A DNA stretch of 64,000 bases from an uncultured Prevotellaceae bacterium. GTDB taxonomy: Bacteria > Bacteroidota > Bacteroidia > Bacteroidales > Bacteroidaceae. The stretch covers positions 62,001 through 126,000 of the forward strand of contig ONFA01000004.1 of assembly GCA_900316975.1 (NCBI GenBank). The letters are read 5' to 3'. The notes beneath the pieces are model-generated. The model saw only the letters and a list, made by a program, of their open reading frames with translations, was not told where the DNA came from and ran no database searches. This document shows, piece after piece, positions 29,703 through 44,040 of the stretch. Position 1 is the stretch's first letter. Each line of letters opens with the position of its first letter. The position numbers were made by a program, and so were the translations under genes.

Positions 29703-32700
29703 ATGATAGATAAAAGCATTCAAAAAGTTCTTCTCTTAGGCTCTGGAGCCTTAAAGATTGGTGAGGCTGGCGAGTTCGACTACTCTGGTTCACAAGCCCT
29801 GAAAGCCCTGAAGGAAGAGGGCATCGAGACCGTGCTCATTAACCCCAATATCGCCACAGTGCAGACCTCCGAAGGTGTGGCCGACAAGATTTACTTTCTG
29901 CCCGTCACCCCCTTCTTCGTAGAGAAAGTGATTCAGAAGGAACGACCACAAGGCATCCTATTGGCGTTCGGTGGACAAACCGCCCTCAACTGCGGCGTGG
30001 AACTCTATCAGCAGCACATCCTTGAGAAATACAACGTGCGTGTGCTTGGCACTCCTGTTCAAGCCATCATCGACACCGAAGACCGTGAACTCTTCGTGAA
30101 GAAACTGGACGAGATTGACGTGAAAACCATCAAAAGCCACGCTTGCGAAACCATCGAAGAGGCTCGCCAAGCCGCTTCTGACCTCGGCTATCCCGTCATC
30201 ATCCGTGCTGCCTACGCATTGGGTGGTCTCGGCTCCGGCTTCTGCGACAATGAGGAAGGACTGAACAAGTTGGCAGAGAAAGCCTTCTCGTTCTCTCCCC
30301 AAGTGCTCGTCGAAAAATCGCTGAAGGGTTGGAAAGAGATTGAGTACGAGGTGGTGCGCGACCGCTTTGACAACTGCATCACCGTCTGCAACATGGAGAA
30401 TTTCGATCCCCTCGGCATCCATACGGGTGAGAGCATCGTCATCGCTCCATCACAGACACTCACCAACAGCGAATACCACAAACTCCGCGCCCTTGCCATC
30501 AAGATCATCCGCCACATCGGCATCGTCGGCGAGTGCAACGTGCAGTATGCTTTCGACCCCGAAAGCGAGGATTACCGTGTCATTGAGGTGAATGCCCGTC
30601 TTTCGCGTTCCTCCGCTTTGGCATCAAAAGCCACGGGCTATCCGCTCGCCTTTGTCGCAGCCAAACTCGGTCTCGGCTACGGACTCTTCGACCTGAAGAA
30701 CTCTGTCACCAAGACCACCTCTGCCTTCTTCGAGCCAGCCCTCGACTATGTGGTGTGCAAGATACCCCGTTGGGACCTCGGCAAGTTCCGTGGTGTTGAC
30801 CGTGAATTGGGTTCTTCCATGAAGTCGGTGGGCGAAGTGATGGCAATTGGACGCACTTTCGAAGAGGCCATCCAGAAAGGTCTCCGCATGATTGGGCAAG
30901 GTCTGCACGGCTTCGTCGGCAATCACGAACTGGAAATTGATGATGTAGATGCCGCCCTCAAAGCCCCCACCGACAAGCGAGTGCTGGTGGTGGAAAAGGC
31001 TCTCCACATGGGCTACACGGTCGAGCAGATTCACGACCTCACAAAGATAGACAAGTGGTTCCTATACAAGTTGCAGAACATCCGCAACACCTATGTGGAA
31101 TTGCAGCAGAAAGGAGCCATCCAAAATGTGCGCAAAGACCTGATGCTTCGTGCCAAGGTGCAGGGTTTCACTGATTTCCAAATCTCCCGTGCCGTAGGTC
31201 TCGAAGCCCTCATCGACCCAGAAATCGCGACCAAACTGGTGCGTGAACTGCGCAAGCAAATGGGCATTCTCCCTGTCGTCAAACAAATCGACACCCTCGC
31301 TGCCGAGTACCCTGCACAGACGAACTACCTCTATCTTACCTACCAAGGTTGCGGTTCCGTATGCTGCGACGCCGTCGCTGCACAGGGAAAAGCAGCCCAC
31401 GACATCACCTACGAAAACGACCGCCGCTCCATCATCGTCCTCGGTTCAGGAGCCTATCGCATTGGTTCAAGTGTAGAGTTTGACTGGTGTGGTGTTCAGG
31501 CACTTAACACTATCAGGAAGAATGGCTACCGTTCGGTGATGATTAACTACAACCCTGAGACAGTCTCCACCGACTACGACATGTGCGACCGCCTCTACTT
31601 TGACGAACTCACCTTCGAGCGTGTGATGGACATCATCGAACTGGAGAACCCTCATGGCGTGATTGTTTCCACAGGTGGACAAATCCCCAACAACCTTGCC
31701 ATGCGTCTTGACAGTGAACGTGTCCCCATTCTCGGAACTTCTGCCAAGAGCATTGACAACGCAGAAGACCGCGACAAGTTCTCTGCCATGTGCGATCGCA
31801 TCGGAGTGGATCAGCCAGCATGGGCAGCCCTCACCTCGATGGACGACATCAACACCTTCATTGAGAAAGTCGGTTTCCCAGTCTTGGTGCGTCCGTCTTA
31901 CGTGCTCAGCGGTGCAGCCATGAACGTCTGCTCCAATCAAGAAGAGTTGGAACGTTTCCTCCAATTGGCTGCCAACATCAGCAAGAAGCACCCTGTAGTG
32001 GTGAGCAAGTTCCACGAACACAACAAGGAGATTGAAATGGATGCTGTGGCAAAAGACGGTGAAATCATAGCCTATGCCATCAGCGAGCACATCGAGTTTG
32101 CCGGTGTTCACTCAGGCGATGCCACCATCCAGTTCCCACCCCAGAAGATTTATGTGGAGACCGTTCGCCAAATCAAGAAAGCCTCCAAGAAGATAGCCAA
32201 GGAACTTAACATCTCAGGACCATTCAACATCCAGTTCCTTGCCGAACAGAACCATCTGCGTGTCATCGAGTGTAACCTTCGTGCCTCACGTTCGTTCCCG
32301 TTCGTGTCGAAGGTGCTCAAACTCAACCTCATCGAGTTGGCCACCAAGATTATGCTTGGCTTACCTTTCGAGCGTCCAGAGAAAAACCTTTTCGACCTCG
32401 ACTATGTGGGTATCAAGGCATCGCAGTTCTCCTTCAACCGTCTGCAGAAGGCTGACCCTGTACTTGGCGTCGATATGGCATCGACGGGAGAAGTGGGTTG
32501 CATCGGCGATGACACAGACTCTGCCCTCCTCTGCGCTATGCTCTCCGTGGGGCATCGCATTCCAAAGAAAGGTGTGCTGCTCTCCACCGGCCCTGGCAAA
32601 CAAAAGGCTGACATGCTCCGTGCGGCCCAGCAACTCATTGAACATGGCTATCAACTCTATGCCACAGGCGGCACATCGCGCTATCTGGCAGAAAACGGCA

Positions 32701-32969
32701 TCGCCAACACCCTCGTCCATTGGCCCAGCGAGGAAGGACAGCAGCCACAGGCGCTCGACCTCCTCCACAACCACGACATCGACATGGTGGTCAACGTGCC
32801 CAAGAACCTCTCTGTGGGCGAACTCACCAATGGCTACAAGATTCGCCGTGCAGCCATCGACCTCAACATTCCTCTCATCACCAACTCCCGCCTTGCCTCC
32901 GCCTTCATCAATGCCTTCTGCACGAAGAGCCTCGATGATATTGAAATCAAGGCATGGAGCGAGTTCTGA
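29703..32969 (+). CDS. carB: Carbamoyl-phosphate synthase large subunit
   Basis: The product has 1088 residues, the full family length. Two homologous ATP-grasp halves are visible, each beginning with a KIGEAGEFDYSG- or RIGSSVEFDWCG-type segment and carrying VIRAAYALGGLGSG in the first half and VLVRPSYVLSG in the second. The C-terminal MGS-like allosteric domain starts near residue 955 (KGVLLSTGPGKQKADM) and contains LYATGGTSRYL. It joins bicarbonate, ammonia from CarA and two ATP to make carbamoyl phosphate. It is the last gene of the operon, followed by a hairpin terminator. Confidence 0.97.
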   Translation: MIDKSIQKVLLLGSGALKIGEAGEFDYSGSQALKALKEEGIETVLINPNIATVQTSEGVADKIYFLPVTPFFVEKVIQKERPQGILLAFGGQTALNCGVELYQQHILEKYNVRVLGTPVQAIIDTEDRELFVKKLDEIDVKTIKSHACETIEEARQAASDLGYPVIIRAAYALGGLGSGFCDNEEGLNKLAEKAFSFSPQVLVEKSLKGWKEIEYEVVRDRFDNCITVCNMENFDPLGIHTGESIVIAPSQTLTNSEYHKLRALAIKIIRHIGIVGECNVQYAFDPESEDYRVIEVNARLSRSSALASKATGYPLAFVAAKLGLGYGLFDLKNSVTKTTSAFFEPALDYVVCKIPRWDLGKFRGVDRELGSSMKSVGEVMAIGRTFEEAIQKGLRMIGQGLHGFVGNHELEIDDVDAALKAPTDKRVLVVEKALHMGYTVEQIHDLTKIDKWFLYKLQNIRNTYVELQQKGAIQNVRKDLMLRAKVQGFTDFQISRAVGLEALIDPEIATKLVRELRKQMGILPVVKQIDTLAAEYPAQTNYLYLTYQGCGSVCCDAVAAQGKAAHDITYENDRRSIIVLGSGAYRIGSSVEFDWCGVQALNTIRKNGYRSVMINYNPETVSTDYDMCDRLYFDELTFERVMDIIELENPHGVIVSTGGQIPNNLAMRLDSERVPILGTSAKSIDNAEDRDKFSAMCDRIGVDQPAWAALTSMDDINTFIEKVGFPVLVRPSYVLSGAAMNVCSNQEELERFLQLAANISKKHPVVVSKFHEHNKEIEMDAVAKDGEIIAYAISEHIEFAGVHSGDATIQFPPQKIYVETVRQIKKASKKIAKELNISGPFNIQFLAEQNHLRVIECNLRASRSFPFVSKVLKLNLIELATKIMLGLPFERPEKNLFDLDYVGIKASQFSFNRLQKADPVLGVDMASTGEVGCIGDDTDSALLCAMLSVGHRIPKKGVLLSTGPGKQKADMLRAAQQLIEHGYQLYATGGTSRYLAENGIANTLVHWPSEEGQQPQALDLLHNHDIDMVVNVPKNLSVGELTNGYKIRRAAIDLNIPLITNSRLASAFINAFCTKSLDDIEIKAWSEF

Positions 32970-33011: not shown

Positions 33012-33057
33012 AAAGCAAGCGGTATACCCGTTGTGGTGTGCCGCTTGCTTTGTTTTT
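33012..33057 (+). terminator. Terminator of the glmS-carAB operon
   Basis: AAAGCAAGCGG (33012-33022) pairs perfectly with CCGCTTGCTTT (33041-33051), followed by GTTTTT. Confidence 0.85.
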
Positions 33058-33356
33058 ACCATTATGTATAGAGCATCTTTGGCTAGTGGAAAACACCCAA
33101 ATACAGGTGATGGTCCCAATTCACTGTAAAGCTATAATCTGGGGCAAAGAAAGTTATTTTTACACAATCTCCCAAATCTCTTGCTCGAAAACTGTGGACT
33201 CAGACGGGAGAACAGATCATCCCCGTGTGTCTCGGGACTTTTTTGTCACAAAGTTCGTCTGCCAATAACATGACTTCTTAATTGGCGGTTTTTCCATCTT
33301 TGGGGAACAGATCAAAGAACCGTCCGCTGACTTCTGCACTCACTCAATCGCATCTT
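33058..33356. other. Gene-free stretch, nothing recognised
   Basis: Short ORFs exist here (for example 33038-33268), but none has a promoter box, a start context or family features. I see no hairpin or repeat in this part. Confidence 0.5.
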
Positions 33357-33384
33357 TCATTTATCATTTGTCATTTATCATTTA
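33357..33384. repeat. Heptanucleotide repeat, four TCATTTR units
   Basis: TCATTTA, TCATTTG, TCATTTA and TCATTTA run exactly head to tail. The last merges with a perfect 17-nt palindrome (33381-33397), and the 23-nt-period array begins right after it. Confidence 0.85.
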
Positions 33385-33394
33385 GCGCAGCGCT

Positions 33395-33696
33395 AAACAT
33401 ACCCTTTGAGGATAGCCCTTACACAGACTTGAGAATACCCCTTAAGCACGAGCGAGTATAGCCTTGACACAGAAGCGAGAATATTAGTGACATCGAGCTG
33501 AGTATATTAGTGACGTTTAATGTTGTATACGAGTGACATTGAAGTGTGTATATTAGTGACGCTGAAAGGTGTTGATGAACTACGTGCTCACCGTGCGCAT
33601 CTCATTTCGCTCACCCAGTGCATAATATTACGGACACCCAGCGCATGTTATTTCGCGCTGAGTGCCCATCTTTGATAGCCAAAGGGTTATGTGTTT
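33395..33696. repeat. Degenerate 23-nt-period tandem array 1 with imperfect terminal inverted repeats
   Basis: From 33408 to about 33683, twelve units follow with an exact 23-nt period: starts at 33408, 33431, 33454, 33477, 33500, 33523, 33546, 33569, 33592, 33615, 33638 and 33661. Units 1-7 share GAG/GTG-TAT at positions 1-6 and most carry AGTGAC at positions 10-15. Units 9-12 share a GTGCGCAT-like segment. The left edge (about 33395-33413, AAACATACCCTTTGAGGAT) matches the reverse complement of the right edge (about 33674-33696, with ACATAACCCTTTGGCTATC). A 23-nt unit shifts the reading frame at each copy, so the array is not coding. It resembles a minisatellite-bearing MITE. Confidence 0.8.
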
Positions 33697-33774
33697 TTGC
33701 AATTAGCGGAAGAAAGCATGCCTAAATGTCGACACTCGTTGCCACCTTGAGCTTAACGTCGTAAGGCTCATGAG

Positions 33775-33812
33775 CAGACCTCCGTAAGGCTCGCGAGCTT
33801 TACGGAGGTCTG
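33775..33812. repeat. 38-nt near-perfect palindrome
   Basis: CAGACCTCCGTAA pairs with TTACGGAGGTCTG, and the inner 12 nt (GGCTCGCGAGCT) are also self-complementary apart from one G-T. There is no T-run, so a terminator is less likely than a cruciform or protein-binding site. The region 33697-33899 otherwise holds nothing that I recognise. Confidence 0.75.
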
Positions 33813-33899
33813 TTGAGAGGGGGTTAGGTTAACTGTTCAAGGTAAGGCAAAGACAAGTAATTATCTTCTTGCGGAAGCAAAAAGACAATGACATTTCAC

Positions 33900-34400
33900 T
33901 CATTCCACCTTTCTGACGACCCACCACTTCGCTTCTATGTTATAGTTGTTCCACCAAAGAATCACGACTCCTATTAGCATTACCAGATAACTTGCAGCCC
34001 AAAGATAATTGCCTAAACGCAGAGATTCTAGATGATAAATTGGATATAGAAAATAACAAAGGGATGCACTAAAAGCCAATATCGTCAGCCATACCGTCCT
34101 CTTTCTCACCTTAGTACGAAGCGTGTCAATGATAGCCCAAAAGTAGAGAATGTTGGAGCCCCACAAGAAAAGAGAGACAAAGGCATTAAAGATGGTCATG
34201 AGGGGGTATTTCAAGAGAGCCTCTTTTGGAAAAAACACTGCGGTCCATCCACCCACCACACACCAAATCCCACGCACTTCATCCTCTGGGTCAATGCCGA
34301 CAACCACCCCTGATGGCAAAGCGCAAGCCAACACATAAAGCAGGAGGCTGATACCAATAGTGCTCCATGCTATCCATCTCATTATCATCTGTGTCTTCAT
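33900..34400 (-). CDS. Small multi-pass membrane protein, unknown family
   Basis: The product has 166 residues and no recognised domain. Hydrophobic segments at about 8-28, 62-85, 100-120 and 130-150 suggest four membrane passes. The first 29 codons, with about 10 nt upstream, are duplicated at 36570-36661 (88 of 92 nt identical by eye), where the copy is truncated. It lies at the downstream end of a run of minus-strand envelope genes. No promoter box was found just upstream. Confidence 0.6.
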   Translation of the reverse strand: MKTQMIMRWIAWSTIGISLLLYVLACALPSGVVVGIDPEDEVRGIWCVVGGWTAVFFPKEALLKYPLMTIFNAFVSLFLWGSNILYFWAIIDTLRTKVRKRTVWLTILAFSASLCYFLYPIYHLESLRLGNYLWAASYLVMLIGVVILWWNNYNIEAKWWVVRKVE

Positions 34401-40380: not shown

Positions 40381-40503
40381 TGAGTCGGAATTAAGAGATA
40401 AGATTTAGGAGGGAGGAGGGAGGCATACGCTTCTTGTGCTCACTTGCATCCACCTAAGAGGCTCAGAAATGTTCTCTCCGGCGCCTCAGTCGTTATCTCT
40501 CGG

Positions 40504-40943
40504 GAGATGACGAGCCTCAGAGCTTGGAGATGACGAGCCTCAGAGCTTGGAGATGACGAGCGTCAGAGCTGGGAGATGACGAGTGACAGAGCTGGGAGAT
40601 GACGGAAGGGAGAACGAAGAGATGACGAGTGTGACAAAGCAAAGATGACGAGTGTGAGGCTGTGGTGGATACGAGCAAGCGTGAGCGGAGATGACGAAAG
40701 GGACGAGGCGGTGATGACGAGTGCGAGGAAGTGGTAGATACGAGCAAGCGTGAGCGGAGATGACGAAAGGGAGTCTTGTGAGATGATGTTGAGAGGGAAG
40801 AGGCGACGCCCAGATTTGCGGAAAGTTCTATGAGTGAGACCTCATTGTGTGTATGGGTGAGACACCGACACCTGTATGGGTGAGACACCGACACCTGTAT
40901 GGGTAAGATACCTCAACGACTGTGAGCGAGCAAATGGAGAGTG
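40504..40943. repeat. Degenerate 23-nt-period tandem array 2 (about 19 units)
   Basis: Anchored on GATGACGAG, units begin (anchor positions) at 40506, 40529, 40552, 40575, 40598, 40621, 40644, 40667, 40690, 40713, 40736, 40759 and 40782, then 40805, 40828, 40851, 40874, 40897 and 40920. Every step is 23 nt. The first four units are nearly identical (GAGATGACGAGCCTCAGAGC), a three-unit block repeats at 40644-40703 and 40713-40772, and two perfect copies of a GTATGGGTGAGACACCGA unit plus a partial one end the array. The core AGTGAC at positions 10-15 matches array 1 in the same phase. The minus-strand ORF over it (40517-40894) is an artefact. Confidence 0.85.
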
Positions 40944-43776: not shown

Positions 43777-43866
43777 GGGTATTTTTTCGACAACACAAAA
43801 ACAACTCTCAACTTTTTTCACTTTTACATTATTTTTCTTTCAATTTTGTGTTATCCTCGCTTATTC

Positions 43867-44040
43867 GTACGTTGGCTACACCGAACTTAGGCTGCATCTC
43901 GGAAATAAAAATGAAAAAATGTTTTTTCATTTTGTATTTCGCTCGATTATTCGTAACGTTGGCTACGCCGAACTTAGGCTGCATCTCGGAAATAAAAATG
44001 AAAAAATGTTTTTTCATTTTGTATTTCGCTCGATTTGCAC
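43867..44040. repeat. Two tandem 87-nt units, each with a 12-bp hairpin, upstream of trmD
   Basis: Units starting at about 43867 and 43954 are nearly identical (about 2-3 differences plus one indel at the start). Each contains the perfect hairpin AAAATGAAAAAA-TG-TTTTTTCATTTT (43908-43933 and 43995-44020) and ends in a TTTTGTATTTCGCTCGATT stretch. The TAACTTTG box of the trmD promoter (44041-44048) lies exactly 87 nt after a TAACGTTG (43954-43961), so the repeated unit spans the promoter. Confidence 0.85.

Follow-up and report, generated by a model that had tools for sequence, protein, structure and literature searches.

The intergenic gap behind carB in the 64,000-nt stretch of DNA analysed here (the window) contains a tandem array whose units start every 23 nt even though their sequences have drifted apart. 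The window lies on contig C58 of a 3.08-Mb genome in 94 contigs (G000), which its CarB sequence assigns to an uncultured rumen Bacteroidaceae. The locus raises the question of why the length of a unit should be kept when its sequence is not, and whether this is a peculiarity of one element or a more general property of the intergenic DNA of these bacteria.

Structure of the array

Over positions 33395-33696, identity at lag 23 is 0.552, and that at lags 22 and 24 (0.20 and 0.23, respectively) is at background. Multiples of 23 are raised as well (0.48 at lag 46 and 0.38 at lag 69), no lag between 10 and 60 exceeds 0.371 in 1,000 shuffles of the segment, and TRF also recovered the 23-nt period. 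The spacing of unit starts runs from 33395 to ~33671, and unit identity falls beyond 33648, at the end of the array. Thus, the twelve units at exact 23-nt steps reported in the preliminary description form a real array, since the lag-23 value exceeds anything obtained by shuffling. Both the period and the unit count stand, but the units do not make up a single family; eight belong to one family and four to another that is unrelated to it. Adjacent units agree at 10-16 of 23 positions inside each block, with lower values at the right end, and this agreement drops to 5/23 (chance level) at 33556. Because of this break and because the two blocks are found apart elsewhere, the array divides into an eight-unit left module and a four-unit right module (Table 1). 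A coding role was ruled out, as the period is no multiple of three and a long ORF is absent, and a search of the window against Rfam 15 gave no match above the gathering score.

Table 1. Positions of the array, its parts and its neighbours in the window.
Feature	Position	Strand	Basis or remark
TCATTTA heptamer repeat	33357..33384	+	also upstream of several other left-module copies
Left edge, imperfect inverted repeat	33395..33413	+	seen directly; missing in left-truncated copies L010, L046 and L055
Left module, eight 23-nt units	33396..33578	+	unit alignment, 13-copy alignment, pooled position profile
Right module, four 23-nt units with cores such as GCTCACCCAGTGC and GGACACCCAGCGC and AT-rich linkers	33579..33676	+	multi-copy
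Hairpin from right-module units 3 and 4, 14-bp stem, 10-nt loop	33631..33669	+	24-copy pairing, fold z
Right edge, imperfect inverted repeat	33674..33696	-	seen directly; restricted to some right-module copies
Shared right flank, not a 23-nt array	33677..33825	+	identity to congener copies
carB, carbamoyl-phosphate synthase large chain (left neighbour)	29703..32969	+	ORF; orthologues 75-95% identical
166-aa ORF, no Pfam match, convergent with carB (right neighbour)	33900..34400	-	ORF call

The two modules differ in plan. According to the pooled position profile, the left-module unit has a conserved box of ~13 nt (GTATA..AGTGAC) and a spacer of ~10 nt that is variable in the later units. It contains neither palindromic units nor dyads, and its RNA folding z scores of +0.64 and +1.21 mark it as unstructured; therefore, RNA structure cannot account for its period. 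Each right-module unit, on the other hand, combines a variable 7-nt head with a CAGCGC core and an AT-rich linker, and the heads (GGGCACT, GTTCTTA, GTCCTTC, GCGCACC and GTTATTA) have been exchanged among units and copies. The right module matches its own reverse complement, and its last two units form a hairpin. Across 24 copies, 86% of the hairpin cells are paired and two-sided changes occupy 21 cells versus 8.8 in shuffled data (none of 500 shuffles reached the observed value), while 8-10 of the 24 copies, i.e. a third or more, have unpaired positions in the hairpin head. The fold z score of the right part as RNA is -1.95 on the plus strand and -3.66 on the minus strand. The shared sequence also extends past 33696, where the preliminary description had set the right limit, to ~33825. 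Identity over this right flank is 88-93% with two further full copies in a congener (contigs C29 and C49 of G016) and 75-87% with partial ones. The flank has a fold z score of -5.05 and includes a 38-nt near-perfect palindrome (CAGACCTCCGTAAGGCTCGCGAGCTTTACGGAGGTCTG, 33775-33812) common to the full copies in the congener. Two right-module copies (L050 and L054) carry an identical 22-nt insertion, GCCTAACGGCGAGCTAAAGGTT, in the first linker, and a part of it, CGAGCTAAAGGTTC, recurs near other copies (L049 and L055).

Comparison of the copies bore out the earlier proposal that length is kept better than sequence, as they vary by substitutions or by whole units and almost never by small indels. 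Among 13 left-module copies aligned over 157 columns, there were 43 substitution events and no indels, and 27 right-module copies yielded 84 substitution events, one single-base indel (a 1-nt deletion), and the one 22-nt insertion. Pooling gives 127 substitution events and 1 one-base indel for the arrays, compared to 56 and 5 in the adjoining shared flanks (p = 0.014). The comparison supports a constraint upon array length but does not prove it, given that the counts are modest and that detection at a fixed lag favours indel-free arrays.

Dispersed copies and their gene context

Searches with the element returned 18 matches in its own genome, matches in 7 of 24 congeners, and none in 16 genomes of other families; among 118 genomes across the phylum (67 genera), only its own genome matched. 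The feature is a dispersed, composite, non-coding mosaic repeat that is limited to the genus within the genomes searched, and the array behind carB is one composite copy of such modular repeats, which are located behind genes. Both modules have many intergenic copies, joined or apart, in the genome itself and in some congeners. The right module occurs alone at ~13 further places in its own genome, several other left-module copies (L009, L010, L054, and L056) continue into a different tail, and in one congener copy (L055) a GTATGGGTGAGAC module, which also forms part of a second array in the window, comes after the left module. The full left-plus-right element is present several times in G016 at 83-92% identity. 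The preliminary description had called for a comparison of array lengths, and these were found to change by whole units, several copies being longer by exactly 23 nt. It had also made its proposal depend upon an enrichment of lag-23 arrays in related strains or in the rest of the genome, and such arrays are indeed enriched in both. The second array (40502-40772 and 40850-40912) comprises two more 23-nt families, one with a GAGATGACGAG box and a variable spacer and the other with a GTATGGGTGAGACAC box; weak copies of these occur at other places in the genome, and the second also adjoins the left module in L055. A tandem repeat of another kind, with an 87-nt unit in 2.3 copies that are 93% identical, is found at 43838-44035. 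On contigs C61, C75, C90, C44, C60, and C35 of G000, several copies are no more than a few hundred to ~1,100 bases away from the contig ends; the repeats may break the assembly, in which case the copy number would be an underestimate.

To compare individual sites, the flanks of three right-module copies (sites A, B, and C) were located in congeners. Site A is filled in both G000 and G002, with flanks that are 98.6 and 96.4% identical, and 18 of the 98 array positions differ between the two genomes with no change in length. At site B, G000 and G002 carry the element, G005, G013, G015, and G016 do not, and G009 and G010 have an array made of three palindromic 23-nt units of unrelated sequence. 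At site C, the element is present in G000, while G015 and G024 lack it and have gaps of about half the length. Hence, the empty orthologous sites that had been suggested as a check do exist among the congeners; copies are gained and lost, and the array evolves more rapidly than the sequence around it.

The 3' end of carB faces the element, and immediately behind the gene (~33015-33060) there is a distinct hairpin with a T-run after it. CarB is 95% identical to its counterparts in the rumen Bacteroidaceae MAGs RGIG6789, RUI029, and RGIG8278 and ~82% identical to that of Paraprevotella. A conserved location behind carB was ruled out, because the congener RUI029 has another gene directly there. 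Using genes called by a simple longest-ORF rule, the 31 copies with both neighbours were distributed over 17 convergent, 12 tandem, and 2 divergent gaps, versus 20, 68, and 31, respectively, for the 119 baseline gaps of ≥150 nt. Convergent 3'-3' gaps are therefore enriched (17/31 vs 20/119, p = 4e-5). In the tandem cases, the element is oriented with the genes in 6 and against them in 6. The 23-nt modules spread as blocks into 3' intergenic gaps, where they become joined to one another and are shortened or extended by whole units. To the right of two copies (L014 and L050), the neighbouring genes encode InlB/Flg_new-like repeat proteins that end in KGVNIIRYPNG..K-type tails, which by eye we take to be T9SS C-terminal sorting signals.

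Unit length across Bacteroidales

Two samples of DNA were surveyed for further arrays, 464 kb of G000 and 3.4 Mb from Bacteroidia. In the former, lag 23 is the commonest array period, the arrays found have unrelated unit sequences, and most of the arrays tested belong to further dispersed families in the genome and its congeners. The latter contains 112 non-coding arrays at lags 10-60, of which 66 are at lags 21-24. After sequence clustering, 52 of 85 independent non-coding arrays (lags 12-60) fall at 21-24 nt, with 26 at 22 nt, 16 at 23 nt, 8 at 21 nt, and 2 at 24 nt. The mode is 23 in the genus (10 arrays at 23 and 5 at 22) versus 22 in the rest of the order (6 at 23 and 21 at 22; p = 0.008), and arrays within one genome tend toward a common period (p = 0.03). 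Arrays of B. bouchesdurhonensis have periods of 21 and 22 nt and those of Paraprevotella clara a period of 22 nt. Dyad symmetry beyond that of a column-permuted null was detected in 31 of the 66 arrays, with ~3 expected. Some Bacteroides (L140, L147, L164, and L176) have unrelated 22-nt arrays in the carA-carB gap, just upstream of carB; in most relatives, this gap is only ~10-30 nt long. A small control set from outside Bacteroidota, four of whose five members are plasmids (E. coli, pSymB, pMP118, pRHL1, and pHG1; 550 kb, ~54 kb of it non-coding), contained no non-coding arrays of 21-24 nt. The gene context of all 21-24 nt arrays pooled is near baseline, so the 3' bias described above belongs to the family in hand and cannot be claimed for the whole class. 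In the literature covered, which consisted of papers outside subscription, the BrickBuilt repeat of Porphyromonas was the only precedent found for a 22-23 nt array preference in Bacteroidetes.

Within the limits of a sample, these results suggest that Bacteroidales strongly prefer intergenic tandem repeats of 22-23 nt, whatever their sequence, which is a more interesting result than the cause of the 23-nt period in this one element. Bacterial minisatellites are usually taken as idiosyncratic, whereas here unrelated units share one length across an order. We tentatively propose that Bacteroidales might share a sequence-independent ruler of 22-23 nt for intergenic arrays, which would measure 22 nt in Bacteroides and Paraprevotella but 23 nt in the present genus. 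A lineage-specific process acting upon DNA, or a protein, would set it, and BrickBuilt would be one described instance. A shared unit length poses a testable problem, as something, be it a protein, a polymerase, or a step of repair, has to measure out 22-23 nt, and a general class would take in the P. gingivalis repeat, so far an isolated curiosity. From a practical viewpoint, such arrays may break assemblies and may make the intergenic DNA of gut and oral Bacteroidales vary in a mosaic fashion.

Candidate origins of the element and its period

The preliminary description had pointed to BrickBuilt and read the edges of the array as MITE-like ends. BrickBuilt is a MITE of P. gingivalis (P. gulae is named too) made of 23-nt imperfect tandem units without spacers; it is intergenic, has ~20 dispersed copies whose unit number shifts by whole units, and is predicted to form stem-loops, its unit being AGAYCATARTATCCTCTCRTRTG and its IS5-type TIR GAGACCTTTGCA, and several copies adjoin genes for T9SS (PorSS) C-terminal-domain proteins (PMC4596501). 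The comparison is apt inasmuch as the present feature is also a 23-nt tandem repeat, intergenic and multi-copy, with T9SS-like neighbour genes at L014 and L050. However, the sequences do not agree. The BrickBuilt unit has no match in the window at up to 3 mismatches, the rotation-optimised similarity of units is no better than random (p 0.2-0.8), and no match to the TIR (GAGACCTTTGCA / TGCAAAGGTCTC) occurs near 33395-33696 at up to 2 mismatches. The two TIR matches in the window (21346 and 29081) are below the number expected by chance, and the edge and the TIR have only a CCTTTG core in common. Homology to BrickBuilt is thus ruled out by the sequence of both unit and TIR. The present element also differs in that no leader or tail was recognised, its two modules are unrelated and freely combined, and the same genome contains many other 23-nt families. 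As to the edges, the inverted repeat (AAACATACCCTTTG / CAAAGGGTTATGTGTTT) does exist, but its arms are not the paired ends of one unit; complete copies do not share terminal inverted repeats as MITEs generally do, and many or most copies carry one edge or none. A classical MITE of the BrickBuilt kind, in which an IS transposase recognises both ends and the internal array is passive, would fit the filled and empty sites, the imperfect inverted edges, and the published precedent. We nonetheless regard it as very unlikely, since the two modules are independent with one edge missing in most copies, the BrickBuilt unit and TIR are absent, and no target-site duplication was seen, although a flank identity of ~80-90% is too low to read one. 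Even less probable, to the point of being barely credible, is mobilisation by a REP-associated tyrosine transposase (RAYT). BIMEs are extragenic mosaics of REP palindromes, i.e. short palindromic units that are regularly spaced and alternate in orientation (PMC2817692, PMC3733652). The right module resembles these in its palindromic units of alternating orientation, the element is likewise extragenic and mosaic, and the genome does encode one Y1_Tnp protein. That sole Y1_Tnp gene has no such array in its flanks, however, and its lack of association with the repeats led us to reject a RAYT-mobilised origin; moreover, the left module is not palindromic, several sequence-unrelated families coexist in one genome, and a fixed period of 22-23 nt is held across unrelated families. 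Iterons of plasmids and replication origins, which are direct repeats of ~22 bp with a box and a spacer at constant length, are similar in repeat size, plan, and constancy of length, but the present repeats are dispersed at gene 3' ends, lack a replication gene, are degenerate, and comprise many families per genome.

The explanation toward which we lean, tentatively, is that unit spacing is kept at the level of DNA, probably as phased protein-binding sites. Each unit would constitute a site (a box, often with a dyad) that needs a fixed distance to the next site on duplex DNA, so that a DNA-binding protein would occupy the array cooperatively at the ends of genes. Selection would then remove indels that break the register and tolerate whole-unit gains or losses as well as spacer substitutions, while exchanges between copies, by gene conversion or recombination, would reshuffle the unit heads. 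This explanation is consistent with the ratio of substitutions to indels in arrays and flanks (127:1 vs 56:5), the constant length at site A, the enrichment in convergent gaps, the occurrence of multi-copy modules both apart and combined, the varying occupancy of sites, the unrelated array of 3 x 23 nt at one of these sites in two congeners, and the retention of 22-23 nt by arrays of unrelated sequence, 31 of 66 of which contain dyads. A role at the level of DNA rather than RNA is indicated by the unstructured left module and the 6:6 orientation. For the same reason, an RNA element at gene 3' ends, in which trains of hairpins end or protect the transcripts of converging genes, is unlikely. The 3' location, the hairpin covariation, and the stable folding of the right module (z -3.66) and right flank (z -5.05) all speak for it, but the pairing heads are missing in a third or more of the copies, carB already has a hairpin and T-run of its own, Rfam provides no match, and hairpins fail as a sole explanation for the left module. 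Neutral turnover with gene conversion is a serious rival that is only a little less probable than the spaced sites we favour. According to this rival, slippage or template switching specific to Bacteroidales makes duplications of 21-24 nt, unequal recombination and gene conversion keep the register, and nothing binds. It would readily produce the gains and losses of whole units (+23 in several copies), the exchanged heads and shuffled spacers, arrays that change faster than their flanks, a single unit length with unrelated unit sequences, and hairpin arms that are nearly perfect, as quasipalindrome correction leaves them. Alone, it does not explain why small indels are rarer in arrays than in flanks, why the length is taxon-specific (23 vs 22), or why convergent gaps are enriched. 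Against spaced sites, in turn, no candidate protein was found, the units are so wholly different between families that no one protein with sequence specificity could recognise every family, and one 22-nt insertion and one 1-nt deletion have been tolerated among indel counts that are small. Nor is 23 bp a whole number of helical turns. The notion of binding once per two turns was inexact, as the A/T dinucleotide peak of the genome lies at 10.5 bp, making 23 bp equal to 2.19 turns. A period set by a genome-specific helical repeat was also rejected, since A/T dinucleotide periodicity was 10.5-10.8 bp in the four sets covered and did not track the difference between 23 and 22 nt.
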